Part shown: piece by piece, positions 25,666 to 64,000 of the stretch
How positions within the stretch are numbered: the first letter of the stretch is position 1
How the letters are laid out: the number at the start of each line of letters is the position of its first letter
Assembly: GCA_029964075.1 (NCBI GenBank)
Contig: CM057150.1
Location: forward strand, 6,109,126 to 6,173,125
Source: Patiria pectinifera
Taxonomy: Eukaryota; Echinodermata; Asteroidea; Valvatida; Asterinidae
Length of the DNA stretch: 64,000 nt
Reading direction: 5' to 3'
The notes under the pieces: model-generated
The model's database searches: none
Seen by the model: the letters and a program-made list of their open reading frames with translations, nothing else
Told to the model about the DNA's origin: nothing
Program-made: the position numbers and the translations under genes

Positions 25666-25894
25666 GTAAGATGTAATACCTAACTTTGTACAGACAGATG
25701 CACAGCAACTGAGTATAGGCTTATGCCTACATGTATGAAAATAAAAGGAACTTTATATCAAGTGGCAATAACTGATGAAGGTCTACTTACTTTCGGATTA
25801 TTAGAAGAAGAAAAAAAAACAATAATCGAAGTGACAACAAACCTTAGTTCGTATTCTGTTATCCTCCATTTCAGAGTGTAGAGTATCTGAAAAA

Positions 25895-31348: not shown

Positions 31349-34300
31349 GTGAGTCGGCACTTGTTGGACATGCACCGTGGAAGCTACAGCACAGGTGGGG
31401 GCGGGATTGCATTGACTGAGAGAGACAGATGGAAACATTTGTCAAGCTTTATTCGTGCGTTCTGATAACACTGCTTTCCCTGTTGTGCTGTGACTGGCAA
31501 TGTTTGTATCTCCTATCAATAGTCGCCAGGGCTCTATACCATGGCACCTGTCCGGGTAGCCCCGTGAACGTGGCGTTGTAAACACCGCCATCACGCTCCG
31601 TCCTCGCGTAAATACACTCGAGATTCATTGTCACGCGACACGTCCGTTCACATAAGTATAATAAGCCTCTGTACTAACGACGTCACACTTTGTTTACATG
31701 TGCACTTTCCTATGGAGCCAGTGGGGGCCCACGGCCCACTGAGCACCATAGGATCTAGAAAAGCACACACGTAAACAAAGTGTGACGTCATTAGTAGAGG
31801 CTTATTAACCATGTATAATGTTGCCCTATAGGTTAATCATTTACTTGTTAGGCTTCCTGTGAATTGACGCGAGTGTTAATCTGTCATTGCCAAGAAATTT
31901 GATGAAAAATACGGCACAACGAACGTGTTCAAAATGATCAAATTGTATTCTGTGTATTTGTTTGTATGTTCATGTTGTGTTCCTTCGATTTGTATGTCTC
32001 ATCATTTCACTCAGTATTTCTTTAATTAGTTACTATTTTAAGGCACTTTATATAAGCTTCGGATTCCAGAATATACATCCATGTATGTGCCGGCAATTGT
32101 ATTATATTGTTATTCCTTGTTCAATTGTCATGTGCAGAATGGAAATAAATGTGAACTGAACTGAATTGTCATGCATGACCTCTTGCTACACTGCTAGAGC
32201 TTTTTGTGCACTCGCATTTGGTGTTGGTTTAAACATAGAGCTTCTTTGCTCTATGGTTTAACCCCTTAAGGACGGGTTGTAATTCCTCCACACATACAAC
32301 AAGTGGCCCGCATGACTGCACAGCTTTTGTGTGGTAGCGGGACTGCACAAAAGCAGCAGCTGTGGAACCACCCACTAGCCGAGTGCCGCGGCATACCACA
32401 GCTGGCAACTGCATTCCAATGAGGATTAGCGGCCGCGGCCATGACCTCTTCCCGAGCGCACGGGGTTTTAAAGGGATAATGTGTCCTGTAACAGCCCAAT
32501 TGGGCTTCAAAACAACCTTTGAACGAAATGATGTTAATCGGAAAGAACATTTAAAAGAAGAATATAAACATTCCTCCATGATCCACCCAACTATCCTTTC
32601 AAAACTGGGCTTTTTTGTGTTATTCCTATATTATGCGTGCGAGAACGACTTTCGGGGTCCACTTTTGCGACCCCCAAAAGTCGAGCTGTTTTGGGTGCTA
32701 GTTGTGATTTCAATCATTTCATCCGTAAAGTGTTCGCCTCTTGCGGACTTGTAAGAAACCACGGTGCTGTATACGTACGTTATAATAGACACACAGAACG
32801 TGTATATCGTACATTGAAATAATACGACAGGAATAACGTATTTGTACTCCGTCGTGTCCGATGTAAACAACCGGGTTTTTTTTTTGTTTCGTCTCGGAAA
32901 CGGTAAGACATGCATTAGGTTGGTTTCCTTTCAACCAGATGTTTGAAATAGAATACGTAAACAATCCAAAACAAGACATTTTCGGGGATTTCAGGACCTA
33001 GTGCCCCTTTAAATACCTGCGGAACAGCCATCATAGAGGGCAATGCCCTTTTTCAGTTTTGCTAGGATATGCAGGAGTGGACCTTTTGTGCATTTATATA
33101 TACAGTTGACTCTCGTTAGTACAAACTCTGTTAATACAACATTCTGGTTATAACAAACATAAATCCTTGGTCCCGACTGTGCATTTATATGCACAATGAA
33201 TGGGACTGATGTTCCTCTTAATACAAAATTCTGATATAACAAACAATTAGGCTAGGTCTGAACGAGTTTGATATAATGAGACTCGACTGTAGTTACTGAA
33301 TTAAAATAACAAAACATGCGCTCTAAGAAGGTCACTACCTATACAGTTTATGGTCGGGAGAGTCAAAAACGTAAAACTAAATTGGGTTTTCCTTCTCCAA
33401 CAGAAACGGGGACCGTAACTACACAATCGTCTTCAGAATACTGCAAGAATTGTACTATTATATAACTTCGTGCGCCTTTTTTTCTTTTCGGACCAGCATT
33501 TATGTCCAAAACTGCGATGGAGGTCATGGGCGATTTGCATAAAAAATACGGAGATGTCTTCTCACTAAGATTTGGTAATGGGAACGTGATTGTACTGAAC
33601 AACATTCAGATCGTCCGAGAAGCACTGGTGAAGAAGGCCGTGGAGTTTGCGGGTCGACCACAGTCATACACAGGTACATGTACGCGGAACCTCACGTTTT
33701 GATTGGACAGTGGAACTTCCACAGACGTGATTATCTACTGCGGTTAATAAATTAGGAATCTCCAAACAATTGTCATTGGGACCTTTGGCATCTGGTCCCA
33801 AACATGCACCCTGTGAAATTATTCTGCCAGAAATTGTTTTGAAAGTAACTGTCAAGTATTTTCTCAAGACCTTAGATAAATGGGATAGTTCTGTCTTCAA
33901 CTCAGTAAATAAGGCAAACAGAAACGGATTTGATTTTAACTTCAAGAGCAAAAGCACAAATCATTGAAGGTGGTTTAAAAAAAACTGTGTACCTGGACAC
34001 TTTTTTAAAAGTGTGTTAACAGCGTAATCCAGTTATGAGGCCTCAGAAGTTGCATGTATGTACTGTATGTCTTCTCCTTTTTGTCATAGGTCAAAATTTG
34101 AACAGGATATTACTGTATGCACTCAACTTGTGATTATGAGCAATTGTGTTGCTTCAAATGAAAAACAAAGAGATGCACGGAATTCGTTGTAGTAATATTT
34201 ATATTCAACATTAAAATTGTTTCCTTCCTATACTCAGTTGAGATCTTCTCTGAAGGATACAAAGATATAATCTTTTCGAACTACGGCCCGCAGTGGAGGT

Positions 34301-37300: not shown

Positions 37301-40300
37301 GGGGGGGAACAGTATGGAGGTGGAAAGGGATGAAAGATGGGGGAAGATGGGTAAACACAAACAAGGAAGACCAGGTGGATTATCTGTAACAGAAGACAAT
37401 GGAGGAAGAAAAAGATTAATCATTTCCAAGTTGGATGTTGAGACCATGTGGTTGAATAGTTCGAAGACGATTCATCCACACTTTCTCTCTGCTGAGGCGA
37501 ACTGAGTCCTTGCGATGGCCAAGAGATTCAATGCCCTGCAAGATCATATCAGAAATGGAGTGGTTAGGCAGGTTGAAGTGATGACCAACAGGGGTGTCTA
37601 GTTTCTTGGTGTTGACCGTTGACCGGTGGGCATAGAAACGCTTCTTGAGCGTATTCTTAGTCTCACCTACATACTGCACTCCACAGACCCTGTAAGAAAT
37701 GAGATATATGACATTAGAGGTGTTACTAGTGATGTTACCAATGCATGATTGTATAAGGTTTTACTGTTTCAACACAGCTGGAACTGAGACTACCATTCTC
37801 ACGCTCCACTGGGCAGTCGGTCTCATGGCCGAGAATCCACACGTGCAGGAGAAGGTTGCCAAGGAGATCGATGACGTCCTGGGTCACGATACGCTCCCCT
37901 CGTTGGACGACCGTGGCTCGTTGCCGTACACCGAGGCCGCCGTCCTGGAGGTTTTCCGCTACGGATCAGTTGCGCCTATGGGCGTTCCCCATGAGGTCAT
38001 GACCGACACCACACTTGGTGAGTGTTCGGTCCAGTTGTCTTAGTCCCATCACAATTCCATCACAGTTTCGTTAAAGAGCAAGTCACAAGTCTTTAAGAGT
38101 AGGTCACAAGTCATAATAACTTGAGACAAGCATACTTCGCGCCATATGCACATGAACCAGTAGTCACAAACACTGCCAGCACACAAATCTAGGAGGCGCT
38201 ATAGTTTTTGTAGACACATAACATGAACCACCCTCTTGTGACCACCTTATCTCAAAAAAGCTAATAATTTCTTTTAGCCAGTTATAGCCGGGATTATTTT
38301 TGGCCAAAAAAAAACACACGATCTTTGAAAAAAAAATATATCGGCCAAATTTTAAAATTAAGTCAAACACCAAAAATACTGGCCCTTGAGAGTCATTGTA
38401 CAATATTTTGTTGGATACTTTTCACTGTGACTTCATATTTTGCAACACCCCGAGACACCACCATGACCGATATTTCTGTGTCAGTTGAGTTATCCTTTTT
38501 AAATGTATTTCTACAGCTGGGTATGATATCCCCAAAGACACCACGGTGATGATTAACCATTTGGCTCTACACAACGACCCCAAAGAGTGGTCCGAACCGG
38601 AGACTTTTAAGCCGGGTATGTTTGCAGAAAACAGTGCTTGGCTATACTGGACACAGGGAACATGACCGAAATGGTGGCAGAATGATAAAGGCTATGACGT
38701 CATGCTTTGTTTACTTGTGCGTTTTCATATGAGAGCGCGTCCCACCTAGGTGGAACACGCTCTCATAGGAAAGCGCACATGTTAACAAAACGTGACGTCA
38801 TAGACCTCTATCATGATGCCACCATTTCAGTCATGTTCCCTGTATCCAATAACAGAACTGAATGATAATGTTTGTTTGTTTTTTTCCAAAAGGGAACCAG
38901 ACTATTTTGCCTTCCAACCTCGCTTTGGTTACGTTGATTTGAATAGAAAAAATCCAAATGGCCGCAACATGATAATGGTCTGTTAGGTCTTAGGACTTTT
39001 AGAAGCCGTAATCCGGTTCATTAAGGTGACGTCATCTCATTTCAACCATGCGTACTTCACACGGTGTAGCATAACGCGAATGGAACTGGAAGTTAACGCA
39101 ACTCGAGCGTTTATCCAATGGGCGCTAGTTATCAGTGGTGCGCATGCTGCACTCGTTCTTAAATACAAGGCGCGCACGCAGCTTGGCTACTTTATTGGTG
39201 TAAGGAGCCCGACATACGCGAACCTGCTGCAATGGGCTAAAAACCATTTAATTATAAGAGGAGGACACATTGATCTCAATGTATATGGAGATCGATGGGT
39301 GGAACCGCTTACGATCTTGTCCTGTTTAATTGGGGCAGAGCTTGATTTCAAAATAAAAGGGGAGCACAAAATAAATACTGACAACAACTTATTTTACTTT
39401 CATTTTGGCATAAGATACTTTCATTTTCACTGAGGCATAAGATAAAACATGCAAGCGTTCTAACACTTGCCCAGGTTTGACTCCGTTGTGAACACGCAAC
39501 GGAGTCCAGGGTATGAATCTCTCCTGACATAGCGAAAACAATTATAACACATTTTTTGGCATATTTTTACCTGATGGAAGAAGCTGAAATTTCGCTCACA
39601 TATTCCTTGCGTCCAGAATTGTGCCTGCAATCGGCACGCGCGTGTACGTCTTCACGCGGGGAGTTCGTACTGAAAATGTTTTCAACGAACGCGTAGAACT
39701 TGCGGTTTATTTTCGGTAAGCACGCCGCCAGCAGGCATATTTGCCTTTTCTAAACCCAGCACAGGCACAGTTCTGGACACAAGGAATATGTAAGCGAAAT
39801 GTCAGCTTCCTCCGTCAGGTAAAAATATGAAAAAAATGTGGGGTTTTTTTCGCTATGGTGGTAAAATTTATACCCTGGACGTCAGTGCAGTCGTGATGCA
39901 ATGAAGAAGTCGTCCAACCTGGGCTACTGAGGCATAAGATAAAACATGCAAGCGTTCTAACACTTGTTATTTTCCACACAACTTGTGGGCGTGGCCGAAA
40001 TGTGTGAAAGAGGTGGTATATATGAGAATTCGATTAAATTGCGGCAACAAAATCGTGCATTTTGTTGGTAAAAGCATATAACTTGGCATGCAGGGGAAAT
40101 CATATTAAGAGGTGAACCCTGCCCGTTTTGGGGAGGAGCTTGATTTTTAAAAAGGGGTACACTATTTTTCGCTTAGCAGCGCCACTGTATTTGATTCAAA
40201 ACTGGTGACATGTCTGCAGATGTATTTACAACTGTCTGATATTTCGACAGTTAGTAACAATTTCGCTTTCTCAGAACTTTTTCAAATATTACTCGCACAA

Positions 40301-44235: not shown

Positions 44236-44954
44236 GTAAGCTGTAAAATCTAACTCGTGCACAGACATGTAAACAACCTCTGTACATGTACACCTAACGA
44301 AAATGTCAAAAGCAGTTTAAATAAACAAGCAAGTGACGGTTTTCTTTTGTTGCTTTGGTACACCTATCTTGCTTTATATTGTTAGCAGTGAGCGTAGCAA
44401 GGTCAGTGTTATCGGGAAAGGGTAATTATTTATTGAAAAGGGGACCTGCCCATCCGTGCTGAAATGTAGACTCGTTTTTTTCTCCGGGCCCTTGGTCTCC
44501 ATACAATCAAATAGTAGGGGGCTGGTACCATCTGCCATTGAGGGAGTTGTTCAAAACAGACGATATGCACACTAACGGACCATATATGGCGCTTTTCAGG
44601 GCAAAACATGCGCGAGATTAGCCAAAAAGCCACTCGTAATGGTCGCTGGTATATATACAATTAAAGGGCACGCCTTTTTTTCAAAAGGGCATTGATTTGA
44701 GAAAAGAGCACTTGTTAACAAAAGAAGGGCACTCTTTGCAAATGCTGGCGGTGGGGGATTATTGCGCTGGTGAAATAAGAATATCAAAGGGAAAAGGCAG
44801 TTTTTACAAAATCTCCCCTCACAGCCCCCTCCCCCGCCCCCGATGCTCTGCTACATCTATCATTAGACAACAAAAATATGTAATCAAAGTGACACCAAAC
44901 CTTATCTTCTTTCTGTTATCTTCCATTTTAGAGCGTATATAGTATCAGAGCGAA

Positions 44955-45836
44955 ATGGCTGTCAGTGTCGAAGATGCGGCATCTGTACCTTGGCTGTGAT
45001 CGAAAATCTCATTGCGATTGCAGTGTTTGCTGGGACCAAAAAGCTCCGCATCAAGTACTACACTTTTGTGGTCAACCTGGCTGACTTGATCTTCGCCCTT
45101 TTTACAATACCATATCCCTGGCGCCCAAAGCCAAAACAATTCTTCAAAGGTTTTTTCACCGGAGTGTACACCGTCTCCTTACTGACTTTTCCGGCCGTTG
45201 CTATCAATCGTTATCTGGCCCTGTCCCGTATGCCACCAGCTCGCTACGATTCACTGGTGACTGGGCGTCGTATGTAAGGTCGGAGTTTGTATCCTTTTTT
45301 GGTGTTTGAGTCTCGTGTATGGCTTTGTGATTTATAATGCTGTCCCAAAAGACGTTTATTACCTGGTCAATTTCCTTGGATACTCACTGGCAGGGTGTGT
45401 CGTGTTGGCTATCACCGCTCTTGTTTACTACTTGGTTTTCCGTAAGATCAAACAGTATACTCCACCCCTTGCATCCGCGGCGGGCATCAGTGCTAACGCG
45501 GAGCGAGATCAAACCCGAGTCAAGCAGACTCGTCGTTTACTGGTCATGTTGGTTCTCATTCTGGTGGTGGCATTCATTACTTGGTTTCTCTGTTTCGTGC
45601 TAAGGATGATTGCAACCTTAAATCCATCTCTTGGGCTTGATGAGATCTTCCAGATGTGGATTTGGGTGTCTTACTTGCTGTACACCCTTTCTCCAGTGAT
45701 CAATCCGTGGATATACTGGTGGCAACTGGATGGTTTCAGAGAGGGGTTTTATGCCATGTGCTGTCGTTGTGTCATTAAGGCTGAACCTAGCGAAATTGAA
45801 GCTGACCTGAAAACAGTTGCTGAGACTGGTTTGTAA
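44955..45836 (+). pseudogene. Class A GPCR, copy 2, frameshifted
   Basis: This is a paralogue of the receptor at 25895. After the shared start (MAVSVEDA) it lacks 28 bases relative to copy 1, which breaks the frame before helix 1. It also lacks two residues in the helix 2 LALAD (reading NLADL) and has a net 4-base gain near 45270 that breaks the frame before helix 4. The remainder keeps AINRYLALS, a basic third loop, and NPWIYWW for NPxxY. At copy 1's stop position it has TCA (serine). At least two disruptions make this a pseudogene unless unusual splicing repairs it. An AG acceptor precedes the start as in copy 1. Confidence 0.8.
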
Positions 45837-46307
45837 AAGTAGAGGTTCATTATCTCGGGAGGGATTTCCATATTTTAGAGCAAGTCGAAATTCGAGACAA
45901 TTTCCAGTGACAGCAAAAGAGCAACCTCTTTCTATTATGATTTTTTCGTCCGTAAATCTACAACTTTTGTTTTTCACTAAATTTCGAAAAGGTCAAAACT
46001 AAATTATTTCCCACGAAATTAAAGTATAATAATGGTAATGTTCCTCAAAATCTGCGCTAGAAACCAGAGTTGTTTGTTATTTTGTATCGAAGTGTAAAAC
46101 ACAATTTTCTTGATAATGGACGTCTTTTTATAAACAAACTCTGTTAATATCATTTTAATTGTCAATAATAAACTCTTTAAACTTCCGGCACAGATTCGAC
46201 CGAAACAGCGTCCTGAGACTCTTTTGAGGTCAAACGGCTTTTTTCCCCGTCAAAAACAAATTTGGGTCAAATTATTTTATTTTCGAGTCAATTCAAGTGG
46301 CCTGTTA

Positions 46308-46941
46308 TGAAGCCCGGGAAGGGACAGGGTGGAATTTTTTTTTGGAGTTTGCTAATTCGTTCGCACGAATTACTAATTCGTGGGAACGAATTACTAATTC
46401 GTTCGCACGAATTAGCAATTCGTGCGAACGAATTACTAATTCGTGCGAACGAATTACTAATTCGTGGGAACGAATTAACAAACTCCAGTAATTCGTTCGC
46501 ACGAATTAGTAATTCGTTCGCACGAATTAGTAATTCGTTCGCACGAATTACTAATTCGTGGGAACGAATTAGTAATTCGTTCGCACGAATTACTAGGCCT
46601 AATTCGTTCCCACGAATTACTAATTCGTGCGCACGAATTACTAATTCGTTCCCACGAATTGCTAATTCGTTCGCACGAATTAGTAATTCGTGCGCACGAA
46701 TTACTAATTCGTTCCCACGAATCAAAGTGCTAATTCGTTCGCACGAATTAGTAATTCGTGCGAACGAATTAGGAATTCGTGCGAACGAAATAGCAATTCG
46801 TGCGAACGAATTAGGAATTCGTGGGAACGAAATAGGAATTCGTGGGAACGAATTAGCAATTCGTGCGAACGAATTAGTAATTCGTGCAAACGAATTAGCA
46901 AACTCCAAAAAAAAATCCACCCTGTCCCTTCCCGGGCTTCA
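46308..46941. mobile_element. TA-flanked foldback filled with 21-bp palindromic units
   Basis: Near-perfect inverted ends of about 51 bases (TGAAGCCCGGGAAGGGACAG and onward) are flanked by TA at 46306-46307 and 46942-46943, fitting Tc1/mariner-type insertion. Between them are about 25 units AATTCGT-N4-ACGAATT, each followed by a 3-base spacer, giving a 21-bp period. N4 is mostly TCGC, GCGA, GGGA, TCCC or GCGC. Because the period is a multiple of three, long open frames of about 210-230 codons run on both strands; they need not be genes. It lies 3' of GPCR copy 2; the equivalent position in duplicon 1 is empty. Confidence 0.85.
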
Positions 46942-47050
46942 TAGCCTGTAGTAAACCGTGACCAAGTGCACGAAAGGTCATTTTGAACCGGAACAGGTCC
47001 AGGTCAAATCTGACCCGGATTTGGATCTAATCCTGTCCAGTGTGCTTTCA

Positions 47051-48218
47051 ATTGTGTAGGCTGTATTTTTATGGCAATAAGTTAGTACATTATGTTAATT
47101 ATATGGAGTCGATTTATAGGGTAGATAGGTGCATTAATTTGTGGTGGTTAATGTTAAGCAATATTGGCTGAACCTTATATCAGGTTCTGGGTATTTTGGA
47201 TCTTCTCAGGACCAGAGTACACACTGTGCCTCCCACCACCATGGTCCTGATTTGGGAAGATTTTCGTCCGGAATGCGCCCCTTTGGGCACTACAACTTTT
47301 TTTTTACGAAGTGGTAATATTTCAAATTATATATATCATAAGCTTTGATTAACATACCAAATGGTAACATTTTATTTGATTCGTTTACACAAAACAAGTA
47401 CATTGTAGCGTTCTTTCAGACAATCAGTTTTTAATTACCAACTGATCTTAAAGGGACACTGCGTCATGGAATGAGACCAAGACTCGCCATATTGAATTGA
47501 AACTGAGGTAACATGTAATTTTTTTTAACTTGCGAAGAGAAATTAAAGCAAGTTAATTTCTAATTAACTCGAGTTTGCTTCAATGAATAATTTACATTTT
47601 GTAATTAAACATTTCCTAATGTTTTAAGCCAGATTAAAAAAACAAATGACAGTAAAATAAGGCTGAATTAGGCCTGCATCAATAGTCTTGCGCCATCCCA
47701 TTGAACAGTTAACAATTAATGAAATACAACTCATCCATAAGGCCCATTAACACAGATATAAAAATACAGAATAACAGCGCTTGGCTAATTTGAATGTCCC
47801 CAATAATTCATTACCATGCATGTCTTTTTATATTGTGAGACAACAAAAAAATGACATCGTCCGATTGGTCAACCTCATCCCAAGGGCCTACTTTATTTTC
47901 AATGCTCGGTCATAATAGTAGCCCCTGGGTGTGAAAATAGCTGTCTGCATCTTAATTCGACACCGCAACAGCAAGTAATGGATTTATATCATGTAGGTGG
48001 TGATTTTATCTCCAATGTGTATCACGAGTGTTGAGGTTCATTGTGAATTATTACGTCCGATCCTCCTAGATGTAGCATAATACTACATATCGGAACAGTA
48101 TATCGTTTGGGGAAAAAAGTGTTTTCCGATCGCACCCCGGAACGATTTGATTCCGTCTGTACCCCAGACACCGCACACAATAACAAGCACCGATTTAATG
48201 CATGGTGGCCAGGCACAA
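47051..48218. repeat. Spacer end with RX and R2 repeat copies
   Basis: RX lies at about 47480-47720 on the minus strand and R2 at about 47757-48030, matching 9080-9370. No gene is seen before the inner junction of the right arm. Confidence 0.5.
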
Positions 48219-48824
48219 GACTATTCCGTACCTAATCTGCATGTACACAAGATTTTTGAACATGCAAAATGATCCAGCTTCAGGGTGAGAGCGCAGGCAG
48301 TGGGATCGGAGCGCACTGCTCGACATCGTGGCGACGAGGTTGCCCGCTTGTTGGTTTTACTAGACCATTCCTGGTACGCTATCAATTCTATTACGAAGAT
48401 CCCTTTCAAACAGATAATCTACCAGGGGCCAGTTGCTTTGTACAATAGCGTGCACAATGGTTTCTCCATTGAAGGGGGCCGCGTGAGTGTACAGTGATCA
48501 CGTGCCCAGATTCGTTTATACTACCGACTCCAATGTGAAACATGTGGCATGATTCAGGTTTAAAAAACCCACAAATTTAAGATTTTAATGGAGAGTAAAC
48601 ACTAACACTATCCCAATATCGATCTCGTCTAATAAAGGCCACTCCATGCTTCAATCGTTCATGCCATGCGAGTGCGAAGCGAATAATATAACGTCACGAA
48701 ACGATCGCAATTCCCCGGAGTTGAAATGTGTTCAAGTTTTGCGAATTCGCACTAATACTTGCCGTAATATTACAAATTCGCGTTCGTGTTTGCTTTTGTA
48801 CTGAGCATGATGAACCAGCCTTAA

Positions 48825-49057
48825 CTCTCTAAATTCCAAAGAGTGAAATTAGGGACTAGACGTATTAGAGTGAAAATCACTCTCATTTTTGATTGACATA
48901 GTCTGAAAAATGAACCACTTCAGTCGAAGCTCGAGTGAAAACTCGATCTTTACGATTGAAGACATTTCAGTCTAAAACGTCTAGTCCCTAGTTTCCGACT
49001 GTGGGAGTGAATCTTCACTCGATTGGAGTGAATTTTCACTCTTTGGAATTTAGAGAG
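48825..49057. mobile_element. 233-bp palindromic MITE in TAA, right arm only
   Basis: Ends CTCTCTAAATTCCAAAGAGT and complement, flanked by TAA at 48822-48824 and 49058-49060. Inner GGGACTAGACGT and complement also pair. The left arm lacks it near 21330. Confidence 0.75.
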
Positions 49058-49080
49058 TAAGCACAAGCTTTTCATGGTGA

Positions 49081-49215
49081 TACGTTTTTACCTGGAAGGA
49101 ATCCAAGACTGAAGCTCAACATGGCGGTCACCAGCTCCATCCAAGCGAATGCACACGCCAATAGATCAGTACCAAGCAGCTCCCTGGTGTACAGATCGTT
49201 CAATGCGACGAGTAC
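49081..49215 (-). pseudogene. Partial SLC16-like exon 3 (inner right copy)
   Basis: It encodes VLVALNDLYTRELLGTDLLA, then CAFAWMELVTAMLSFSLGFL, followed by a GTAAAAAC donor-like end. The upstream part seen in the left-arm twin is deleted, with the junction at GTGACTCC|GTACTCG. Confidence 0.8.
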
Positions 49216-49256
49216 GGAGTCACGCACTTTTAATAGGATTTTAGACCCCGTGTAAC

Positions 49257-49537
49257 CATGGGCGTCGCCAGGATTTTTTCTAGAGGGGGGCAAAAAAAAA
49301 TTTTGCCAAAAATGCTTGCATTTCTCAACATATTCTCGATTTATCAATTTTAGAGGGGGGCAGGGACATGATCCCCCCAAACTCATTAAATTTACACCAC
49401 TTTGTCTTCGCGCCTCTTTTCTTTTCTTTTTTCTCTTTTTTTTTTTCTTCTTCTTCTTCTTCTTCTTTGTTTTTTTTTACTTTTCCAGGGGGGGGGGCAA
49501 GTGCCCTGCCCCTTTCCCCCTCCTCGCTACACCCATG
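49257..49537. mobile_element. hAT-like MITE, right arm only
   Basis: The ends CATGGGCGTCGCCAGG and a diverged complement ending CTACACCCATG are flanked by a perfect 8-bp duplication CGTGTAAC (49249-49256, 49538-49545). The empty site is GTTACACG at 20822-20829. The interior has T-rich and CTT tracts. Confidence 0.8.
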
Positions 49538-49545
49538 CGTGTAAC

Positions 49546-52500
49546 CCATTTAGTTCTAAACGACACCTATATCAGACGTTTCAATTTAAGCTATATTCCC
49601 TTTTAAAATTTCTCTTCTCCGATATTGAAAAGAGGGAAACTTTGTAAACAACCTGACTAGAAGGCCAATTTTTTTCCAACTATTTATTTTTTTTTAACTG
49701 TGGGAGCAGAACTGACAGTTATTAAAATTTACCCCGAGATAAGAGTTCACAAAACTATTCTGCTCTAGGGTTTAACAATAATAAATAACCTGCGAACATA
49801 AAACCTGTTCATTTTTAATTGGACAAAATTTTGGCATCCTGATGAGAAATATTGACAAAACGCTGGCATCATGAAAGAAGTACCATAGCCTGCACTCATT
49901 GGGTGTGAAATGTTTCTGGCTCTGTCAATAGAGGGCGCTGTCTTTCTTATGTTTCTTATTGGAACAAATTAGTTCGGCAAACAGTGCTCTATAAGTTCTA
50001 TGGGTTGCGTTTTTTTCCTGTTTAACATGGCTAATATCATTAAGCAATAAATTACGAATCCTCCATATAGGTGAAGTTAAGAACTAAAGGGGTTACACGG
50101 GGCCTAACATTCCATGGTTCTAATACAAATTCCATTGACCACATACATCAAACAATGATAAAACTGATAATGGTGAATACATTTAATTCATAAGGGAACA
50201 AAACGAAATTTGGCCATAAAACATACATTCGAACGAATACGTACCGCATAGTAAAAATTCGCTCGTTTCGAGTGAATTCACTCCAAACTAGAGCCGAGGC
50301 GATTTGGGGTGAACTTCATTCAATCCATGCAGTTTCCATTGTTATAAAGTAGTCTATGGAATATCCCCTTGCTCTGCAAGGGTCTATGATAATGCGAGCA
50401 GATTCGGCGATTTATTATGCAAAAAAAAATGCATCTGCACCACGAGATGCAGACAATTCAGCGCGCCTTCTATCGGGACTTCTAGAACCCGTGGTTGTAT
50501 CACAAAAATATGACAGTCAAATTGACCAAGCAACATATAGTCTGTGGGATGGGACGAAAGGCCGAAAACGCTTTAGTTTTCGCGATCTTGACACGGACCC
50601 TCTATTGACACAGAAACCTTTTCGCATGCAATGAGCGCTTCCCAGATGATACTTCTTTCAAGTTTCATATTACATGCATATTCTAGATTTTTGTTTTTAT
50701 TTTCTCATCAGGATGCCAAACCCTTTTCATTATAGTTGTCCAACTTGAAATGGTGTAGTTTTAAGATCGAATGTTATGCATTAGCTGCATAAAAATCGAT
50801 TGGTGTAGTTACACCGCATCTTTCAGTTCTACTCCTTCATTTTTTTTTTGGGGGGGGGCGGGTTGGGAGTTTTGTCGAAAAGAAAAATGACCATAAATTA
50901 GGGGTTTTTTTATTCAGACTCCCCCCCCCCCCTCCAAAAGAAGTAACGCAGAATTTTAAAAAGGGATTATATACATGTATCAGATAAGTTGAAGCATCTT
51001 ATTACAAAACAACTATAAGACGACACTTAAGTTCGCATACATGTACTTGGGTTGATTTTATTTTTGATTACACTTTTATAAAAAAAAAGACTCAAAAATA
51101 AAGACGGCAATAACTGCAAATACTGTTTTGGTATTTTTTTTATATTCCAGGCGCAATGTGGTTTAAGTAATCACCAAAAGAAATACAAATAGCGATTTAT
51201 TTAATATAATCTAATTGTATTTCATTATTTATTTATATATTTTTTGTGGGGAGGGGGGCAATTTAAGCCTGTACAACTTTTACCCACTCAAGAAGAATGG
51301 TATTTAGATGACATAAGCTTGTTCAGTCTGTACTGAATGAGCATTACTCGTTTATTTTCAACTGACAAAACGAGCTATATGAGCACCTGTATACATCACA
51401 AGCCGATTACATAATTGTTGTAACATGCATCAAAAGTCTCATCAACTTGAAGGACCCGCTTTCTGTTTGCAAAGTTTTTAAGAAGAGAAAATTAATTTGT
51501 ATTCCCCTATTTGGAAGCTTTGAGTGGCAGTATTGCAACTGCAATTTGTTTCAGCTGAAATCGCCTTACCGTATTTATTGTTTTGAATATTGTTTTAATG
51601 ACCGATTCATGTTTTGTTGTTGCTCCATCAATTCCGTGAAAACCACCAATAAACACCAACGGCGCACCCGCTTCCTTGTTTGAGGCTGCATCAAACTTAT
51701 ATTACTTTTTTTTTAATTTCAGGCATAACATTTTTTAAAAGATGTTTCAAAGTTCAGATGCTCCACCAGATGGCACGCACTTTTATTATTGTTAAAGACA
51801 TGTTATCCTGAGATAAGAGTTCACAAAATTATTCCGATCTGGGGTTTAACCATACCAATCGATGTTTATGTAGCTAACACATAACATTCTATTAAATTTA
51901 AAACTTGATCATTTCACGTTGGACATAGCTGTAACGTAGTTTTTTTTTTTTTTTTGTGGCAATCCGATGAGAAATAACAAAAATCGAGAATATAATATGA
52001 AAGAAGTATCATCTAGCAAGCACTCATTGGCCGAGTTCGGGCGGGTCTTGTTCTTGACACGGGTACATCATTCTTTCAAACTCCGACGGATATGGTGTGA
52101 GATCCTGTTCCGAGTGCAGTGTTCGTGGGACGGTGTTCCCGCCGTCCGCGCTCAAGAATAATAAAAAAATACTCGCGTCAAGAACTGATGACTGCCCGAA
52201 CTCGGACGGCCATTGCGTGAGAAAAGGTTTCTGACTATGTCAATAGAGGGCGCTGTTTCTTTTCTTCTTCTTTTTCTCATGTAGAATTTTCGGCGTTTTT
52301 ATCCCAGAGTTTTTTCTTTCCCAAACAAACTGTAGATCGGGGAACAAAGTTTTATCGATAGGGCACACCATAATGTACATGTCTGTAAAGTTTTATAAAA
52401 TTCGGCGAACCAGACCGTGCAGCGAGCGAGAAAAAAAAAGGCCTCGTCCCACGGACTAACAGCTTTATAGTCTGATCTAAATGACGTTACAATTTGTTAA

Positions 52501-52680
52501 AGTCGACTCCGATTGGCTGGCGCAAGGGGTTGCATAAAATTTGCATTGCTCACATATAATTATATCTGACGTTGGTTACGGAGATGTCTCCGTTGTGCAC
52601 ATGGTACTCAGACTGTTTCCGCTGTATGATTTGTTTTCCGAAAATATTTTCTTCTGTTTTGAAATTCAGAGTGATTTGCA
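49546..52680. other. Right-arm sequence without a recognised gene
   Basis: It matches the left arm in patches (49680-50050 and 52040-52680). About 50080-52030 has little left-arm counterpart. Bases 50110-50290 resemble transporter intron 2 (12590-12780), another trace of an older partial transporter duplication. A 92-codon frame at 50356-50634 is unrecognised. Several poly-T, poly-G and poly-C tracts occur (50840, 50920, 51940). Confidence 0.45.
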
Positions 52681-52689
52681 TTCTGATTC

Positions 52690-53790
52690 GTAAAGTCTAT
52701 AGTTTCACTCTGAGCATATACAATTATATAAATTTCCATTTGTTTTTAATGAAAGGCAGAAACAGTACAATAATACGCCGGGTAGCACGATGTAAATTTG
52801 CCGATTGAGTGAGGACAGAGTTTCTTATCTAACAGGATGAAAACATTGTGATTTAATAACAAATCGTCTGAATCATTCCTACTTGACTCGTTTGCGCTGC
52901 ACGCTTATTCTGATCACGAGGGAGCCATTCGGGGTCCTGACGTTATGTTGTGAACAAGTGTTCTACAGATCAATGCTCAAATTATGCAACTCTGGGTTAG
53001 TGCTTCCCACCGAAATAATGGACCGATCCAGTGAGCTCCGCCCAGGCGCACGTGGGCAAATTAACACGTGCTCCTCTCCATTGCCACGCTGCATTTTCCT
53101 TCCGCGCGCATCATACACGCGTGCACGCATGTCGGACTTTAGTGCACGCACGTCGGACATAAATCACGGCTGTGATTGGTCAGAACACCATACTGGATCG
53201 GTCCATACGGCAAGCATTCTGACTCTCTGCGAACCATTTCAGTTTTTGTCCAGATAATTTCTGGCCTATGGAGCGCAAACTTACAACACGGTTTTGAGTT
53301 CTCGGAGTGTAGAACTCTCTTTTCTTTTACTTTCTGGCCATAAACCTGTGCATGTTGAATCGGTGAAATCTACTACAAAACCGCCATAACCAGACTCGCT
53401 AGCGTCTGAGTACACTGCAGAAGTTGCTTGAAAGAACGGCTTCATAGGTTGACCGTTAATGTCAACTAGATTTTTTTGTGCCAGAAATCCAACTCTAAAA
53501 GGTAACTAGGAGAAAGCAAATTTTTATGTGACCAATTTTTGCGTGATTCGATAGCTCTGTGCACTGTGAAATTCTTGTGAATAGTCTGGCGATCGATCTA
53601 GAGCGGGGGAGGCAGATACGATAAACCTGCGATTCGTGCAATCTCACGTACGGGAACTAGACTCAAACTTCTGTCTAACCATTCACGAATGGCCGTCCGA
53701 GTTATCGATAATTTGTTTTGTCTCGAAGTCTTAATTTTGGCATCGATAAATTAACATTAGCGAGACGTAAACGGTTTGTATCGCGTGTCA
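52690..53790 (-). mobile_element. DIRS-like retrotransposon relic (right arm)
   Basis: Inverted twin of 18290-19150, with the same RNase H-region pieces and similarly broken. A 187-bp MITE (53019-53205) is inserted in it. The outermost bases (52690-52790) are the intron-2-like sequence shared with the left arm. Confidence 0.6.
53019..53205. mobile_element. 187-bp MITE inside the DIRS-like relic, right arm only
   Basis: Ends TGGACCGATCCAGT and complement. The left arm is uninterrupted at about 18890 (CCGTATTATTTCGG). The flank suggests a TA or TTA duplication. The interior contains GTCGGAC/GCACGCA repeats. Confidence 0.75.
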
Positions 53791-53881
53791 GAATGCGGAC
53801 GACGTACGGACACAAGAAAATGTATACAGTCGAACCCTGATAAGAAGAGCACTGTTAATACAAGGTCCTGCTTAGTATGAG

Positions 53882-54694
53882 CATAGAGCAAGGACCCAAG
53901 GAGTTCGTACTCCACGACTTCAAAAGTAAAATGATGGTCGCCGCGCTCGAAAGCTACAATAGAAAGCACCTGGCGCCAGCTGTTCAGTTGCTCACTACGC
54001 TAATCTCGACACAATAGAGATCCGCGCTCACTTATGCCAAAAAAAGGAGTTTGCATGGCTTCGTAGACAGTACCATGGTAAATACGCAGGCGCAGTTGTC
54101 ATACATCGCTAAAAATGAATGATTTTGAAGTGTTTGTTCGGAGTTGGCTAATACTGGCTTACAATGTGGTCAACATCACTGAAACAATCATTTCGTGAAG
54201 AACAAAATGCTATGTACCTTTAGTGTGAAAACTTGTGAAATTTTCAAAAAAAAAACACATTTCATCAATGATATATTGCCAATTAAAATGTCTGAAAATA
54301 CATGATAACTTATCTGAAAGAAATCCAATTTATCTCCAAATTACAGGGACGGATAACGCTTTTAAGCACCAACAACTGCGCATTGCTAACTTGAGTTCAT
54401 AACTCACATCTAACAACTGCGCAGTTGTAAAAACCTTTCTTGTCGTAAAATATATTTTTCAAAAAAGAGCAGCGACGTGACATGACTTATTATGCAGCAT
54501 ATAGGGAGGTTGTTGGTTACCAACTAAAAGGCGGCGATGATCATCGTGTTCAAAGCCCGCTGGCATTCACGCTTTGAATGGTCGAGGCTTGCGGTCACAG
54601 TGCTGTAGCTATAGACATTCCCGAGGGATTGGTATGTTAATGGTCAAAATGTAAATCGCCCAAGAGTTCTGACTCCTTAGGTCCTTGCTCTATG
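53882..54694. mobile_element. 813-bp non-autonomous DNA element, right arm only
   Basis: Ends CATAGAGCAAGGACC and complement are flanked by GTATGAG (53875-53881, 54695-54701). Left-arm sequence near 18215-18225 is uninterrupted. A 7-8 bp duplication suggests hAT or a relative. No open frame of note. It splits the pogo-like MITE of the arm. Confidence 0.75.
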
Positions 54695-55412
54695 GTATGA
54701 GCACAATTTGAGGTCCCAAGTCTTTTCTTTTCTTTGTTTTCCAATACTGTTAATACAAGGTACCTGTTATAACAAGGTCATTCGTTAAGTCCCAAGAACC
54801 TTGATATATAAAGGTGTTCGATTAATGCGGCAGGTGGATTGCTGCATTTCCGCGCGGGTTGTGCGTGTGAGCGCACGGACGGTATGGTACTGATATCAAG
54901 TTCTGCTGTGGACAATGCTATACCGCTGACGTGGCTATTTTTCCCTTAGCACACACCCATATTTAGCTTCAGGCAAGTTTGTTTGGTCATTTAAATGGTG
55001 AATGGTTGACCTCCCGACAATTCCCGGGACTTTGTGTGAAGTATGAATGGATAACAGCAGTCTGCACTCTGGGATCAGTTAAGGCACAATCCACAGACAC
55101 TGTCGACCTTGGCACCATATTAGCCTGATACAGTCATTAATTCCCAGCCCAATTCCAAAGGTCAACGCTATATTCAGTGACGGATCTACATGGGGATTTA
55201 GGCGGTCTAATTGGGTTTTTCACTCTGGGCCATATTGAAAACCCAATTCAAAACAAACTTTAAACTTTACTCCGAAGAGTGAAAAACCACTCGAATTTTT
55301 AATCTTCCACATTTAGAGAGTACTGTTTTTCTCATTTTGTTCGATCGATTACATGTACACGCACGTCACATCGATTCGCTCGTGAAACCTAGCTCGAACA
55401 CAAGGCTTCAGT

Positions 55413-55611
55413 ATGGGCGAGACTGAAGCTCGTGGTCGATCTCACCAGGGCTGGTTTGCAGTTCTCTGCCTGTTTGCCAGCTACTTTCTGTGGGTATTGC
55501 TCATCAAGGGTCTGGGCGTGATGTTGCCGACACTACAGGAGCAGTTCGCGGCCCAAACTTGGCTGGTCGGATGGATGGTGTCCATTATCACTGCAGTCAT
55601 ATGTGTTACGG
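55413..55611 (+). CDS. SLC16-like gene, exon 1 (right arm)
   Basis: Starts at ATG 55413 (MGETEARGRSHQGW), ends before GTAATC, 199 bases, same length as the left exon. Confidence 0.85.
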
Positions 55612-58525
55612 GTAATCTTTAAACTTAATTTTCCATTCATTGTAAAGAAATGAGCAGTGAGGATTCAGGACGAACACTGGAATCTTCCGTTTCTGTAAAA
55701 ATCAAACGGTTGAGTACTATATGAACCTAGCAACCTGTTGTGTAAACTGTTGTTTACACAACTTGTGTAAAATATTACACAACTTGTTCATGTTTTTACA
55801 CAACTGGTCGCTAGATTCATATAGTACACAACCGAAATAACAGTGTATTTAAAATATAAACATTAACGTGTTCAACCTTCACCGTCAATGGTACTCTGCA
55901 CCCGTACCTGTGTAGGTGAATAATGGTGAAATGTCAGTGGTGACGATTAAGGACACTAGGGACCATTAGAAAAGCGTGCGGTATGGGCCTTATTCATGAG
56001 TCGGCCATACTGAATTGAAAGTTAGGTAAAATCTTAAGTGTAAGTGTATTCTGTAACTGAATGACATGATGTCAGTGGCGTAGCCACCGGGGGGCGTGGG
56101 GGGGGCGACCGCCCCCCATGAAACCTCGTCGCCCCCCAGTCGCCCCCCACTGAGATTTTGAGTTTTTTAAAAAAAAATATCATTGATCTACATGACGCCA
56201 TGGGCCCTATTATGTACTACAATGTATCTTTTGCTTCGAAAATATTGGTTAAAGTGGTCAGAAATTGCCTCAGATAGCACCACAGAGCATTTAGAATCCA
56301 AAATTTTTAGGGGCCGTTAAGCGGGCCCCGAACCCCACGCCTATAGTTCAGAATTCTGGTAGCTGATTCAATGACTCCAACCTCGAAAACAATGTTCACA
56401 ATATGCCTTTAGCTGAAAAACCCTCGAAAATTATGTTTAAATTATTGGTTAAAGTGGTAAGAAATTGCCTCAGATCACACCACAGAGCATCGAAAATCCA
56501 TTTTTTTTCCGGGGCCCTTAAGCGGGCCCCGAACCCCACGCCAATAGCTCAGAATACCGATAGCTGATTCAATGTCTCCAACCTCGAAAACGATGTTCAA
56601 ATAATTATCTTTTGCCAAGAAAATGTTAGTTAAAGCATGGAGGAAAGTCGTAAGAAATTGCTTCAAATCACACCACAGAACATCTAGAATCCATTTTTTC
56701 CCGGGGCCCTTCAGCGGGCCCCGAACCCCACGCCGTTAGGGCATCGCGCTTCGCGCTTGCATCAGTAATGATCAAGGTATTCCCCCCCCCCCCACACTTT
56801 TGAGAAGCGATTGACGCCCCTGCTTGACGCCCCCCCCCATGAAATGTTCCAGCCCCCCCGCACCCCCCCCCCCCACTGAAAAATTCATGGCTACGCCACT
56901 GCATGGTGTGCATTGTTTTGACCGGACATTTGGATTGTGGTGAGTCAACAATCAACAGCTGTTAATTTTGGTGATCCTTTGAGGATTATTCAATAACCTT
57001 TAATTTCTCACAATTTGTTTTCATTATATAGGTCTCCTTGCTAGGCCACTTGAGGTCATATTTGGAACGCGCACTGTAGTGACGGTCAGCGGTTTCGTCC
57101 TTGGGGTGTCAATTATCATTGCTTCCTTCACTACAAGTATTGTTGCATTGACAGTAACACTAGCGCTAGCAGCAGGTAAAGATGTCAAGCGTATTATTAT
57201 ACTGTTCCTACTTTTCATTAAAAATAAAAAGAGATCTGCATAATTGTATACGCTCAGAATGAAACTTTACGAATTAGGGTGAAAATCGCTGTAATTTTCG
57301 AGGGGAAAAATACATGTTCGGAAAACATTCGAATGTTCACTCTTCGATATGTGTTCTTCGTATGTTTGTTGATTAAAGTTTATTTTGTTGGTTTATGGAT
57401 TACATGTATCCACCATTATTCGTTTTATCACTGTTTCATGTTTGTGGTCATTGGAATTTGTATACAGGGCCGCCAATTGAAATATGTACATATTTTTTTA
57501 ATGAAAAATTAATGCAAATCAGGGTAACAGAAATGTAATAACTCTTAAGAGGGCAAACGTTATTTTACAAATTCAAGTAATCGTCAAAGAAGAAGTATTG
57601 ATTTGATTGTTTTGTTATCCAGTGCAATTTACTTACTACCTGCCTCAACGACATATCTTTACTTCAGGACCTAGTTTAAGTGTCGTCCACATTCTGACTA
57701 GGTCAGAAATCGGACGCCGTTTCACAACCAACTATGTCACTGCAGTTGGAATTGGGACTTCAGGGGCTGCTATTGGCATGGTCACCGCTGGGCCACTTAC
57801 TCAACTGTTGCTGGACACGTACGGCTGGAGAGGCGCCTTGCTCATTCTGGGAGGGTTGACCCTGCATCTTGGGGTGTGTGGCGCCCTCTTGCGGCCATCG
57901 TCAACGGAAACACAGACGAACGGCAACTACAGGTCAGTGAGCCCGGACGCTGATGGGGAAACACAGGCGAGTTCGTCAGACGTCCTTGGAACCGACAGTT
58001 CGAAGCAGACATCGCGGCTTTGCGCCTTCAAAGAAGCCCTCAGCGCCCAACTGAAACATTTCGGATTCTCGGTGTGTTTTCAAGTCTCATTTTGGATCAC
58101 AACAGTCGTATTCACATGCAGCCGCTTCGTGGCCGACCATTGGCTAATCTATTACGTTTCTCAGGCCGAAGCCAAAGGCTTCTCCCCGTACGAGGCTGTG
58201 ACTTTCACCACGGCCGCAGGGGTGGGTAATATCGTATTCAAGGCCGTGTTTGGTCCTGTCGTAGACCGGGGTTTGTTGAGGGTGCGACCGGCGATGGTGC
58301 TGATGATCACATTGTGCTCTTTGTCTCTACTGATAACTCCGTGGGTGAACTCCTACTGGCTCATGATGATGGATGCAGTTGTCTATTTTGGCGGGTGTGG
58401 AGTACTCGTCGCACTGAACGATCTGTACACCAGGGAGCTGCTTGGTACTGATCTATTGGCGTGTGCATTCGCTTGGATGGAGCTGGTGACCGCCATGTTG
58501 AGCTTCAGTCTTGGATTCCTTCCAG
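55413..58525 (+). CDS. SLC16-like MFS transporter, right-arm copy, exons 1-3 (3' end beyond window)
   Basis: Join of 55413-55611, 57032-57175 and 57668-58525, all in phase 1 with GT-AG junctions, giving 400 codons before a last exon that must lie past 64000. The frame is clean throughout, including the KGFSPYEAV...VGNIVFKAVFGPVVDRG stretch scrambled in the left copy. It has the family signature GLLARPLEVIFGTR and YGWRGALLILGG (166-177), and a hydrophilic central loop rich in S, T and E (about 192-242). The second half has FAWMELVTAMLSFSLGF. It is probably a plasma-membrane carrier of small organic acids; substrate unknown. Intron 1 carries a hAT-like MITE not found in the left copy. Confidence 0.85.
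56073..56901. mobile_element. 829-bp hAT-like MITE with internal triplicate, right arm only
   Basis: Ends CAGTGGCGTAGCC and GGCTACGCCACTG, flanked by CATGATGT (56065-56072) and CATGGTGT (56902-56909), an 8-bp duplication with one mismatch. A subunit of about 185 bases starting near TTGGTTAAAGTGGTCAGAAA occurs three times. Lies in transporter intron 1; the left intron has no such element. Confidence 0.85.
57032..57175 (+). CDS. SLC16-like gene, exon 2 (right arm)
   Basis: 144 bases, acceptor TTATATAG, donor GTAAAG, encoding GLLARPLEVIFGTRTVVT and on to TVTLALAA. Confidence 0.85.
57668..58525 (+). CDS. SLC16-like gene, exon 3 (right arm)
   Basis: 858 bases from GPSLSVVHILTRSEIGRRF to LSFSLGFLP; acceptor TTTACTTCAG, donor GTAAAAAT. 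The fullest reference for the other three copies in the window. Confidence 0.9.
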
Positions 58526-58557
58526 GTAAAAATGTGTCATCATGACAACTTGGTGCC

Positions 58558-59146
58558 TATAAGGGCCGGTACATGCTCAGCACAAAAGTGAACGCGAATT
58601 AGTGACGTTTCGGCAAGTCTAGGTTATTCGCAGAGCAAATTCGGAAAAACTTGAACACATTTCAACTCCGGTGAATTAGCCAATTGCGAATAACCTATAC
58701 CCTTTGAGAGTTAAATTTAAATAACATCTGGTACACTGACTTGCTCATAATTCCTGGCACGTTTAAACTTCGACTTCTCCAGACCAAAGACACTGTTGCT
58801 AATCACATGATTCAGGGCAAGCTCTTGCATAGGTACATAAGAGACTCTCAACATCATACATTGTTTACAATGGGTGAGAATTACACAAAGACACCAGACC
58901 ATTTCGGAGCTGGGGGTCGCTAGCGTAAGGCTATCCCCAAATCACGTGATATATAGCAACAGTCTCTTTGGTTTGGAGAATTCAAAGTTAAAATGTGCCG
59001 ATCATTCGAGCAAGTCAGAGCACCAGATATTACTCGAATTTAATTCGCAAAATGGCTTTTTGCGAACGTTCCGCGACGTCAAATTCGCTTCGCACTCACA
59101 TTGACATAACATTACTTGCTTGAACTTGAGCATGAACCGGCCTTAT
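58558..59146. mobile_element. 600-bp foldback, right-arm twin of 10906-11512
   Basis: Ends ATAAGGGCCGGTACATGCTC and GAGCATGAACCGGCCTTAT. Same position relative to exon 3 as on the left. Confidence 0.6.
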
Positions 59147-59380
59147 GGGGAGAGGGATATTGGAAGAGTGTCAGTCTTTGATCTCCATTCATCAAGTTCA
59201 ACCATTCCTATTGGTCGAGAGCCCGTCACGTGGCCGGTTTTAAACGGTTGATAAAGACATGGCTGGCAGGTCTTAAACACTTTTCCAGTGTCACATGAAA
59301 TTTTGACTCTCATGAAATCCGGTGCCGGCTCCGTTCTATTGCTTGAACCTTCACAATCCTCTCGTAAGCATGAGCATTCA

Positions 59381-59507
59381 GCCTTTGTACTGATGACGTC
59401 ACAGTTTGTTTACATGTGCACTTTCCTATGTAGCCAGTCACGTTCCACTGAGCACCATAGAAAAGCACCCACGTAAACAAAGTGTGACGTCATCAGTACA
59501 GAGGCTC
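59381..59507. mobile_element. CRE-bearing MITE, right-arm twin of 10547-10673
   Basis: Ends with TGTACTGATGACGTCACA and complement; both arms contain TGACGTCA. Confidence 0.75.
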
Positions 59508-59732
59508 ATACTACCAGTGAGTCAGTATGCCATATTACTGATCAAATTCGAGCGCGTCATTGGCCGATTCCGCTGCGCGTACGGGAAGTAAAAATGACAC
59601 ACGCCCAGGTTACGTCATCCTGGTGAGTATCCAGCTCGCTGCCGTGCGGTGTTTTTTTTTCTGGTAGCACCAAAACATTCCCTACGGAACCCGTCTCGTA
59701 GACATGTAGTCTATGGCATGTAATCTTTACGG

Positions 59733-62700: not shown

Positions 62701-62967
62701 AGTAATTTTGGGGTTTACATTCTTCGCGGGGCTTACAGTAATGTTGGGTTTAGTTTAATTTGTGTTTTATTGTACATTTAACACGAATGTTTTATTTTTT
62801 ATGTTTGTTTTTTTTTTAATTTTTTTTACGTTTCAATTTTGTTTTGTTGTCCTACATTTTCATTGTTAATTGTACGTTATTGTTTATTTTTTTTTGCATT
62901 TTATTTATTTTATTTTTGCTAAACTTTAATTTTGTGATTGTCTTTTTTGCCCTAATGGCCGCCCATA
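59733..62967. mobile_element. 3.2-kb giant foldback element with tandem-repeat arms, right arm only
   Basis: Inverted arms of roughly 1.1-1.3 kb surround a loop of about 0.8 kb (60890-61690). The ends read TATGGGCGGCCATTAGGGC and complement, flanked by TTACGG at 59727-59732 and 62968-62973; the left arm has the single site at 10303-10308. Each arm runs: an AT-rich terminal 200 bases, about 12 (left) or 16 (right) tandem units of 35-40 bases containing CCCCAAAATTACTGTAAG, then about 350-500 bases of unique inverted sequence. Units come in three types (GACGAATG, GTCGAATG, GGCAGCAATGAATG), forming a higher-order triplet of about 112 bases. No transposase or other gene is recognised. Confidence 0.85.
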
Positions 62968-63133
62968 TTACGGAACCAGTCTGTTGTTGTAATCCATTTT
63001 ACTACTGCAGTAAAAACACATTAGAGTGTTGGCACCAGACTATTCCATGTACTGTGACGAAGAACTTCAATTGTGCTGAATAAAGACGCAATATCTACGG
63101 AAACCGATATTGACAAGGCAATGAGGCTACTAA

Positions 63134-63242
63134 GAATATTTGGAATTACTGGTCCCTCGGTTTAGGTCAGCTTGACTACCTCCCTTTGCTTCGCGTCGGG
63201 AGGTAGTCAAACTGACCTACACCGAGGGACCAGTAATTCCTA
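63134..63242. repeat. Near-perfect hairpin of about 105 bases
   Basis: GGAATTACTGGTCCCTCGGT continuing through CTTGACTACCTCCC is mirrored after a short loop (TTTGCTTCGCGTC). The left arm keeps only half of it (10084-10160). Confidence 0.7.
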
Positions 63243-63554
63243 CTTCTTCCCCTAATTACCATGCTGTATTTATACAGTCCTAAATTCACACTACACCGGT
63301 ACGCGTGCAGGTCTGCGCGGTATCGAGCAGTACGCGCGACGCGCGCCAATCTCCATATAACGAGTTATTTACCGGAGGGCTTTATCATTGTATAGCCAGA
63401 GGGATTCTTCGTTGAACGCAATCGTTGGAATTTATAAATTGTGATTTTTTTACTCTTGTACTTGTGGATCGGATTTTTATATTTTTTTTACCGGAAATGT
63501 ATTTATGAATGGGAATACCGAAAATGTATTTGAAATGGGAATAAATACGTGCTT

Positions 63555-63930
63555 GGTCGGTATTCAACATTCTGTTTAAGACCGGTTGGAGTCTGGATGC
63601 TGATAATTATCCTCAATTCGAGTACTTATCAGCATGCAGACTTCAACCAGTCTTAAAACAGAGTGTTTAATACCTCCCACTCACATAGGTATTCCCTTAT
63701 TGAAAACTTAAATGTGTAGTTTCGTCACCTAACGCACGCCAAGTGTGTCCGTCTAGTTTACATGGTATCAAGCTGTACATCTCTCACTTTATGCTCTCTT
63801 TCTCTCTCTAAAGCCCGGTTCATACTTCAGTGTGACGTCAACAATACATTCGAAGCGCGTCCACCATTGTTGACGACATGAATTTCGCTTCGCACATGCT
63901 TTCGCGTGAAGTATGAACCGGGCTCAACGT
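63555..63930. mobile_element. Two small foldbacks, right-arm twins of 9395-9520 and 9635-9770
   Basis: The 63555-63680 hairpin (AAACAGAGTGTT ends) and the 63811-63926 hairpin (GCCCGGTTCATACTTC ends) appear in mirror order to the left arm. Nothing else is recognised up to the window end. Confidence 0.6.
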
Positions 63931-64000
63931 CAAAACACGTAATTCACGTTGGAAATAAAATCAAGAACACGAAATAAATCAATTGCTTTGCTATTGCGGT

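Follow-up and report, generated by a model that had tools for sequence, protein, structure and literature searches.

A 638-bp inverted-repeat element at positions 46306-46943 of the window (the 64,000-nucleotide stretch of Patiria pectinifera DNA analyzed here) contains, at 46354-46896, 25 copies of the palindrome AATTCGT-N4-ACGAATT, 22 of which are exact. From its sequence, this element is probably a non-autonomous, MITE-like transposon of the IS3EU type, whose interior is a minisatellite that grew from the center of a smaller ancestor. It is short, non-coding, and bounded by inverted ends and a target duplication, as a MITE is, and it seems to be an atypical form of a familiar type of element rather than a new system. 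Its parts are as follows.

46300-46305: left target-site duplication, GCCTGT, adjoining the start of the end at 46306
46306-46352 (+): left terminal inverted repeat, TATGAAGCCCGGG...GGAGTTTGC, 47 bp, matching the right end with one 1-bp indel
46354-46476: block 1, six palindromic units at 21-bp steps
46477-46489 (+): 13-bp gap, AACAAACTCCAGT, an apparent relic of the inner edge of the inverted end (ACGAATTAACAAACTCCA versus ACGAATTAGCAAACTCCA)
46490-46591: block 2, five palindromic units
46592-46600: gap, ACTAGGCCT, with an inverted AGG/CCT joint (AGG, then CCT)
46601-46723: block 3, six palindromic units, the last with one arm mismatch
46724-46731: gap, AAAGTGCT
46732-46896: block 4, eight palindromic units, two with one arm mismatch
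46898-46943 (-): right terminal inverted repeat, 46 bp, ending in ...GGGCTTCATA
46944-46949: right target-site duplication, GCCTGT

The ends of the element read TATGAAGCCC...GGGCTTCATA (TATGAAG...CTTCATA), and GCCTGT lies directly outside both. Within the window, the end motifs GAAGCCCGGG and GACAGGGTGG occur at this element only. A preliminary description had placed the element at 46308-46941, with near-perfect inverted ends and a TA duplication. The ends are indeed near perfect, differing by the single indel, but the limits are 46306-46943, and the TA appears to belong to the TATG...CATA ends, with the 6-bp GCCTGT outside it. Comparison with a second element in the window favors taking the TA as the final two bases of each end, flanked by a 6-bp target duplication.

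59733-62967: sister foldback element, TATGG...CCATA, with target-site duplication TTACGG and 36-bp tandem arrays in its arms

This sister element is 3,235 bp long, and its ends (TATGGGCGG...CCGCCCATA) are identical over their first 100 bp. It lies within a long inverted duplication that the window holds in pieces (about 9324-21931 and 48217-64000, the main ones 86 to 97% identical) but is present on one side only, and the other side retains an empty site at about 10303-10308. The joined flanks of the sister element align to the duplicate without gaps, 339 of 348 bases being identical and TTACGG occurring once; neither the TATG..CATA ends nor their TA are present at the empty site. A 6-bp duplication was therefore made by an element with such ends, which brought its own TA. 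The window contains no empty site for the 638-bp element, whose own 6-bp duplication is read from its flanks and by analogy with the sister element. A Tc1/mariner-like or other TA-target MITE, with ends TGAAG...CTTCA and TA duplicated, would account for the TA at both outer edges of the 638-bp element; that reading is very unlikely, since TA is self-complementary and can equally be the last two bases of the ends, since a 6-bp repeat lies exactly outside them, and since the empty site of the sister element is without the TA. The long inverted duplication also contains MFS transporter-like frames, and it supplies empty sites for insertions.

A scan for 9-bp inverted pairs that start with TA and lie within 4 kb of each other, made after both elements had been noticed, returned 448 pairs (581 minus 133 inside the array), exactly 2 of which are flanked by a 6-bp direct repeat, as opposed to 0.13 expected from base composition. 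These two are the elements at 46306-46943 and 59733-62967. None of the 448 pairs has a flanking repeat of 5 or of 7 to 10 bp, and 170, 3, and 12 have repeats of 2, 3, and 4 bp, respectively. Among all 12-bp inverted pairs, 38 of 3,236 have a 6-bp flanking repeat; the eight of these 38 that were listed comprise four in the array, the element itself, CCCGGG inside its ends, and two elsewhere. Neither of the latter, at 2918-3562 and 31685-31783 among the matches listed, starts with TA.

Several other readings of the element were rejected. One frame per strand runs through the array with no stops, as opposed to 16 or 17 in the others, a consequence of a palindromic unit whose 21-bp period is divisible by 3; a Pfam search of these two open frames returned no match at the cutoff, the only hit being a subthreshold COG6_N on the minus strand (21.3 versus a cutoff of 27.4 bits). 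For an RNA gene, there was no Rfam match at the gathering score and no tRNA (ARAGORN, bacterial code). The DNA fold of the whole element has an energy of -323.0 kcal/mol; a palindrome array of any kind should fold in this way, and the value is not used as evidence. Exact scans of IMG/VR found no match for the end of the element, for two adjacent units, or for the end of the sister element, and an exact scan of GTDB genomes found none for two adjacent units; these are collections of viruses and prokaryotes, so zero matches there say little. In the middle of the sister element, 8 of 14 open reading frames were searched against Pfam (E of 0.1) with no match.

The window matches AATTCGTNNNNACGAATT exactly at 22 places, all within the array, and 100 dinucleotide-preserving shuffles of the window contain no such match. 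When one mismatch is allowed, there are 26 matches, consisting of the 25 array units and an isolated site at 27015. The 638-bp element accounts for 84 of the window's 197 starts of dyads with seven-base arms, and its dyad density is exceptional within the window. The preliminary description of about 25 units at an exact 21-bp period is correct as to number, but the period is exact in only 21 of 24 steps. The remaining three steps, of 31, 27, and 26 bp, separate four blocks, of 6, 5, 6, and 8 units, and exceed the regular step by 10, 6, and 5 bp, 21 bp in all.

The arms of the unit are nearly invariant, with mismatches at 3 of 350 positions, each confined to one arm of its unit. The cores, as read, are TCGC (8 units), GCGA (6), GGGA (5), TCCC (3), GCGC (2), and GCAA (1), which when folded for strand reduce to GCGA (14), GGGA (8), GCGC (2), and GCAA (1), bearing out the earlier claim of constant arms around a four-base core drawn from a few alternatives. 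The 21 regular joints are ACT/AGT in 14 cases, AGC/GCT in 4, and AGG in 3. The fuller unit is a 20-base palindrome, TAATTCGT-N4-ACGAATTA, plus one joint base, and the 21-bp period corresponds to two helical turns but equally to 20 + 1.

Long arrays of near-identical units are prone to misassembly, and the number of units may be inexact. That the array is an assembly artifact, at least in its unit number, is nevertheless scarcely credible given its three unique gaps, its mixed cores, and its intact flanks with a matching 6-bp duplication.

Orientations of the units had been said to alternate; they are in fact mixed, with 13 adjacent pairs in the same orientation versus 9.7 in shuffled arrays (P = 0.10). 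Beyond the ends and the unit palindromes, the array resembles a long inverted repeat no more than chance allows (best five-unit inverted match of cores among all registers, P = 0.99). Units 2 to 6 aligned against units 7 to 11 have 5 mismatches in 107 positions, a register with a nominal P of 0.005 that is uncorrected for the registers tried. We do not claim a higher-order inverted duplication of blocks (best register, P = 0.99; registers of blocks 3 and 4, P = 0.12 to 0.14; blocks 1 and 3, P = 0.24). Direct higher-order repeats of cores are likewise not above chance in the array (P = 0.76), and homogenization of neighboring cores is unsupported (6 identical neighbors versus 4.6 expected, P = 0.29). 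Cores and joints agree in orientation in 28 of 44 usable pairs and are opposite in 16 (joints being counted for both neighbors); the two are only loosely tied and have therefore been reshuffled relative to each other.

The contrast between arms and cores could be taken as a sign of selection. When counted copy by copy, mismatches affect 3 of 350 arm positions and 11 of 100 core positions, with the best orientation chosen for each core (Fisher exact test, P = 8e-6), and variants common to at least two units occur in 6 of 7 non-arm columns as opposed to 1 of 14 arm columns (hypergeometric test, P = 8.5e-4). Both figures would favor selection of the array for clustered binding sites: each dyad would bind a dimer, either of the transposase or of a host protein, its half-sites spaced 10.5 bp apart along one face of the helix, and would thereby raise transposition or recruit the machinery of the element. 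The accessible text of one report considers extra transposase sites in tandem repeats of the terminal inverted repeats with regard to Galileo and proposes them for Tetris (PMC4079207). When events are counted instead, by a parsimony estimate in which flips cost nothing, there are about 5 changes outside the arms and 2 or 3 inside, and the departure from an even spread is slight (binomial test, P = 0.045 to 0.088). Moreover, the units are not all in phase, the blocks being offset by the +10-, +6-, and +5-bp gaps so that block 3 lies about half a turn out of phase, and the sister element, which is of the same type, is not rich in dyads (3 of the 197). We consider a selected binding-site cluster unlikely. 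A more specific form, in which the dyad array is the working part of an IS3EU-type element, its transposase-dimer sites (half-sites one helical turn apart) amplifying themselves such that longer arrays outcompete shorter ones and grow through transposon-level selection, appears more doubtful still; if the array does bind transposase, it would offer a direct test of selection on repeats borne by an element.

The constancy of the arms might instead result from hairpin-templated repair, in which one arm corrects the other during replication while the loops (cores) and joints (spacers) drift. A single 20-base unit folds to a hairpin of 8 bp closed by a 4-base loop (-5.3 kcal/mol under DNA parameters), the GCGC cores (2 of 25) are those expected from self-copying of a GCGA or TCGC unit, and template switching in yeast extends identity between the arms of imperfect inverted repeats, according to the available sections of a published study (PMC3820800). 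Yet all three arm mismatches are one-armed and uncorrected, a single A-to-C change explains GCGC equally well, and if units were repaired internally, each could settle on its own pair of symmetric arms, whereas all share one arm sequence. This mechanism, too, seems improbable as the cause of the pattern.

The inversion of units offers another source of the contrast. Because an inverted palindrome changes only in its core and joints, flips supply a variety of cores without mutation: TCGC and GCGA are one core on two strands, as are TCCC and GGGA. The variable cores beside constant arms thus stem in good part from units lying both ways, and some constraint on the arms may remain. The array illustrates a trap, in that constant arms with variable cores mimic selection when, in palindromic repeats, flips alone explain a good part of the pattern.

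Growth of the array from within the element is suggested by its junctions. Both ends enter the array in the same phase, through a TTTGC-TAATTCGT junction, and the gap that separates unit 6 from unit 7 has the sequence ACGAATTAACAAACTCCA, which differs by one base from the inner edge of the end (ACGAATTAGCAAACTCCA). On both strands of the window, CAAACTCCA occurs four times, at the two ends, in the gap between units 6 and 7, and at 33641 (-). The preliminary description had offered three readings of the array: a multivalent protein-binding site, a cruciform former, or a terminal motif amplified locally. The third agrees best with the sequence, since the unit continues both ends inward and a relic of the junction lies inside the array; the array might also bind protein or form cruciforms. 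The retention of one unit-to-end junction at both ends and in the relic makes it most likely that the array expanded from a short central palindrome in a smaller ancestor.

The ancestor would have been a small element with a single unit at its center (end - TTTGC - TAATTCGT-N4-ACGAATTA - GCAAA - end). The present element would depend for its movement on a transposase supplied in trans from another locus, presumably an IS3EU transposase. The 20-base palindrome could fold into a hairpin favoring slippage or template switching during replication, and units would then multiply at 20 + 1 = 21 bp, with joins between copies leaving gaps and a relic of an end. Exchange between identical arms in opposite orientations may invert cores and spacers, with no effect on the palindromic arms, and the array would have no function other than as a passenger of the element. 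Models in which MITE arrays grow through stem-loops appear in the accessible parts of two reports (PMC8268682 and PMC12628747), and unequal crossing-over is named as the first candidate for Tetris in the portion available of a third (PMC4079207). The element may clearly exemplify the conversion of a small palindromic transposon's own center into a minisatellite, with the apparent ancestral junction still readable inside the array.

A much shorter array occurs elsewhere in the window.

15298-15424: small inverted-repeat element with three 21-bp, largely palindromic units, ACAAGTTG...

A duplicate of this element, at about 55707-55834, has two 21-bp units as opposed to three, and the stretches holding the two are identical at 905 of 958 positions. 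The statement in the preliminary description that ordinary MITEs do not carry phased dyads holds insofar as the 46-kb element stands out: a tandem array at 4402-4988 has none of the 197 seven-base-arm dyads and the sister element has few, but the small 15-kb element, with 7 of the 197, does have a short array. The low dyad content of the sister arrays indicates that a palindromic array is no general trait of the type.

The array at 4402-4988, composed of 16-, 26-, and 42-bp units with its halves in opposite orientations, was rejected as a palindromic array (no seven-base-arm dyads, five with five-base arms, and no enrichment), and no clear ends or target duplication were seen. Another insertion with inverted ends (CATAGAGCAAGGACC...GGTCCTTGCTCTATG), at 53882-54694, has a 7-bp flanking repeat, GTATGAG, and lies in a gap of the alignment to its duplicate near 18216-18222. 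A 201-bp tandem repeat occupies 56239-56734 in 2.5 copies and has relatives at 7523-7642. P450, 7TM, and MFS domains are present in the window (Pfam), and a rhodopsin-type receptor gene occurs in two copies, 25823-26979 and 44881-46001, that are 78% identical; the 638-bp element begins about 0.3 kb past the end of the match in the second copy. A frame with a GIY-YIG domain, at 37416-37760 (-), may be the tail of a retroelement. Penelope-like elements carry a GIY-YIG domain.

Among known elements with internal repeats, Tetris and Galileo are close in general plan, being inverted-repeat elements with tandem repeats inside their ends (PMC4079207 and PMC4168063, as far as the accessible text extends). 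Tetris is also non-autonomous, and its alleles differ by one repeat, but its repeats are about 220 bp and its target-site duplications 8 to 10 bp, as opposed to 6 bp here, in the available description (PMC4079207). Galileo, in the corresponding sections of its own report, has repeats of about 140 bp in one copy and duplications of 7 to 8 bp, again unlike the 6 bp here (PMC4168063). A 21-bp dyad construction is absent from these descriptions within the text available (PMC4079207 and PMC4168063). Foldback elements of the Mutator or P type make target duplications of 7 to 11 bp; the duplication here is 6 bp, and none of the 448 TA-starting pairs has a repeat of 7 to 10 bp. Classical foldback elements (FB, Galileo, and Tetris) have long inverted arms of tandem repeats; the ends proper of this element span 47 bp, and the inverted symmetry of its array beyond single units does not exceed that of shuffles overall.

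Tandem repeats inside MITEs are described for Xstir and miDNA4 of Xenopus, and there is an amplification model for Angel of zebrafish (PMC12628747 and, in part, PMC8268682, in their accessible sections). These elements resemble the present one in having tandem repeats inside a MITE, derived in Xstir from its own interior, and in the stem-loop or microhomology models proposed for their growth. They differ in that the available passages do not describe the unit as a short palindrome in mixed orientation (PMC12628747 and PMC8268682). The "mirage" minisatellites of amphioxus were set aside as different in kind, being tandem duplications over exon-intron borders with units of 10 to 160 bp in the text consulted (PMC3087553).

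The ends and target-site duplication, from which the superfamily is assigned, lead us to file the element as a candidate non-autonomous member of IS3EU. Complete IS3EU families always have TA..TA termini and usually have 6-bp target-site duplications, and GingerRoot elements mostly have TA..TA ends with 6-bp duplications, in the accessible portion of one survey (PMC10045372); IS3EU families of Pucciniales have terminal inverted repeats of over 30 bp ending in TAYGG..CCRTA and 6-bp duplications, in the available text of another (PMC12730594). The 638-bp element shares with these the TA..TA inverted ends, the 6-bp GCCTGT duplication, and ends longer than 30 bp (47 and 46 bp). The sister element (TATGG) fits the TAYGG..CCRTA consensus fully, whereas the 638-bp element (TATGA) has A and not G as its fifth base. 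Unlike IS3EU and GingerRoot elements, the 638-bp element is too short for an IS3-like DDE transposase, and none was found in either element; a further difference is its palindromic minisatellite interior. Among the open-access reports surveyed, none describes such an interior for an IS3EU element. The element ties IS3EU-type ends to the growth of tandem repeats, and a parallel in an animal is provided by the oyster satellites CgiSat35 (690 bp) and CgiSat47 (129 bp), which are entered beside DNA/IS3EU in a table of their report (PMC8268682) and are likewise tandem repeats tied to IS3EU, with far longer units.
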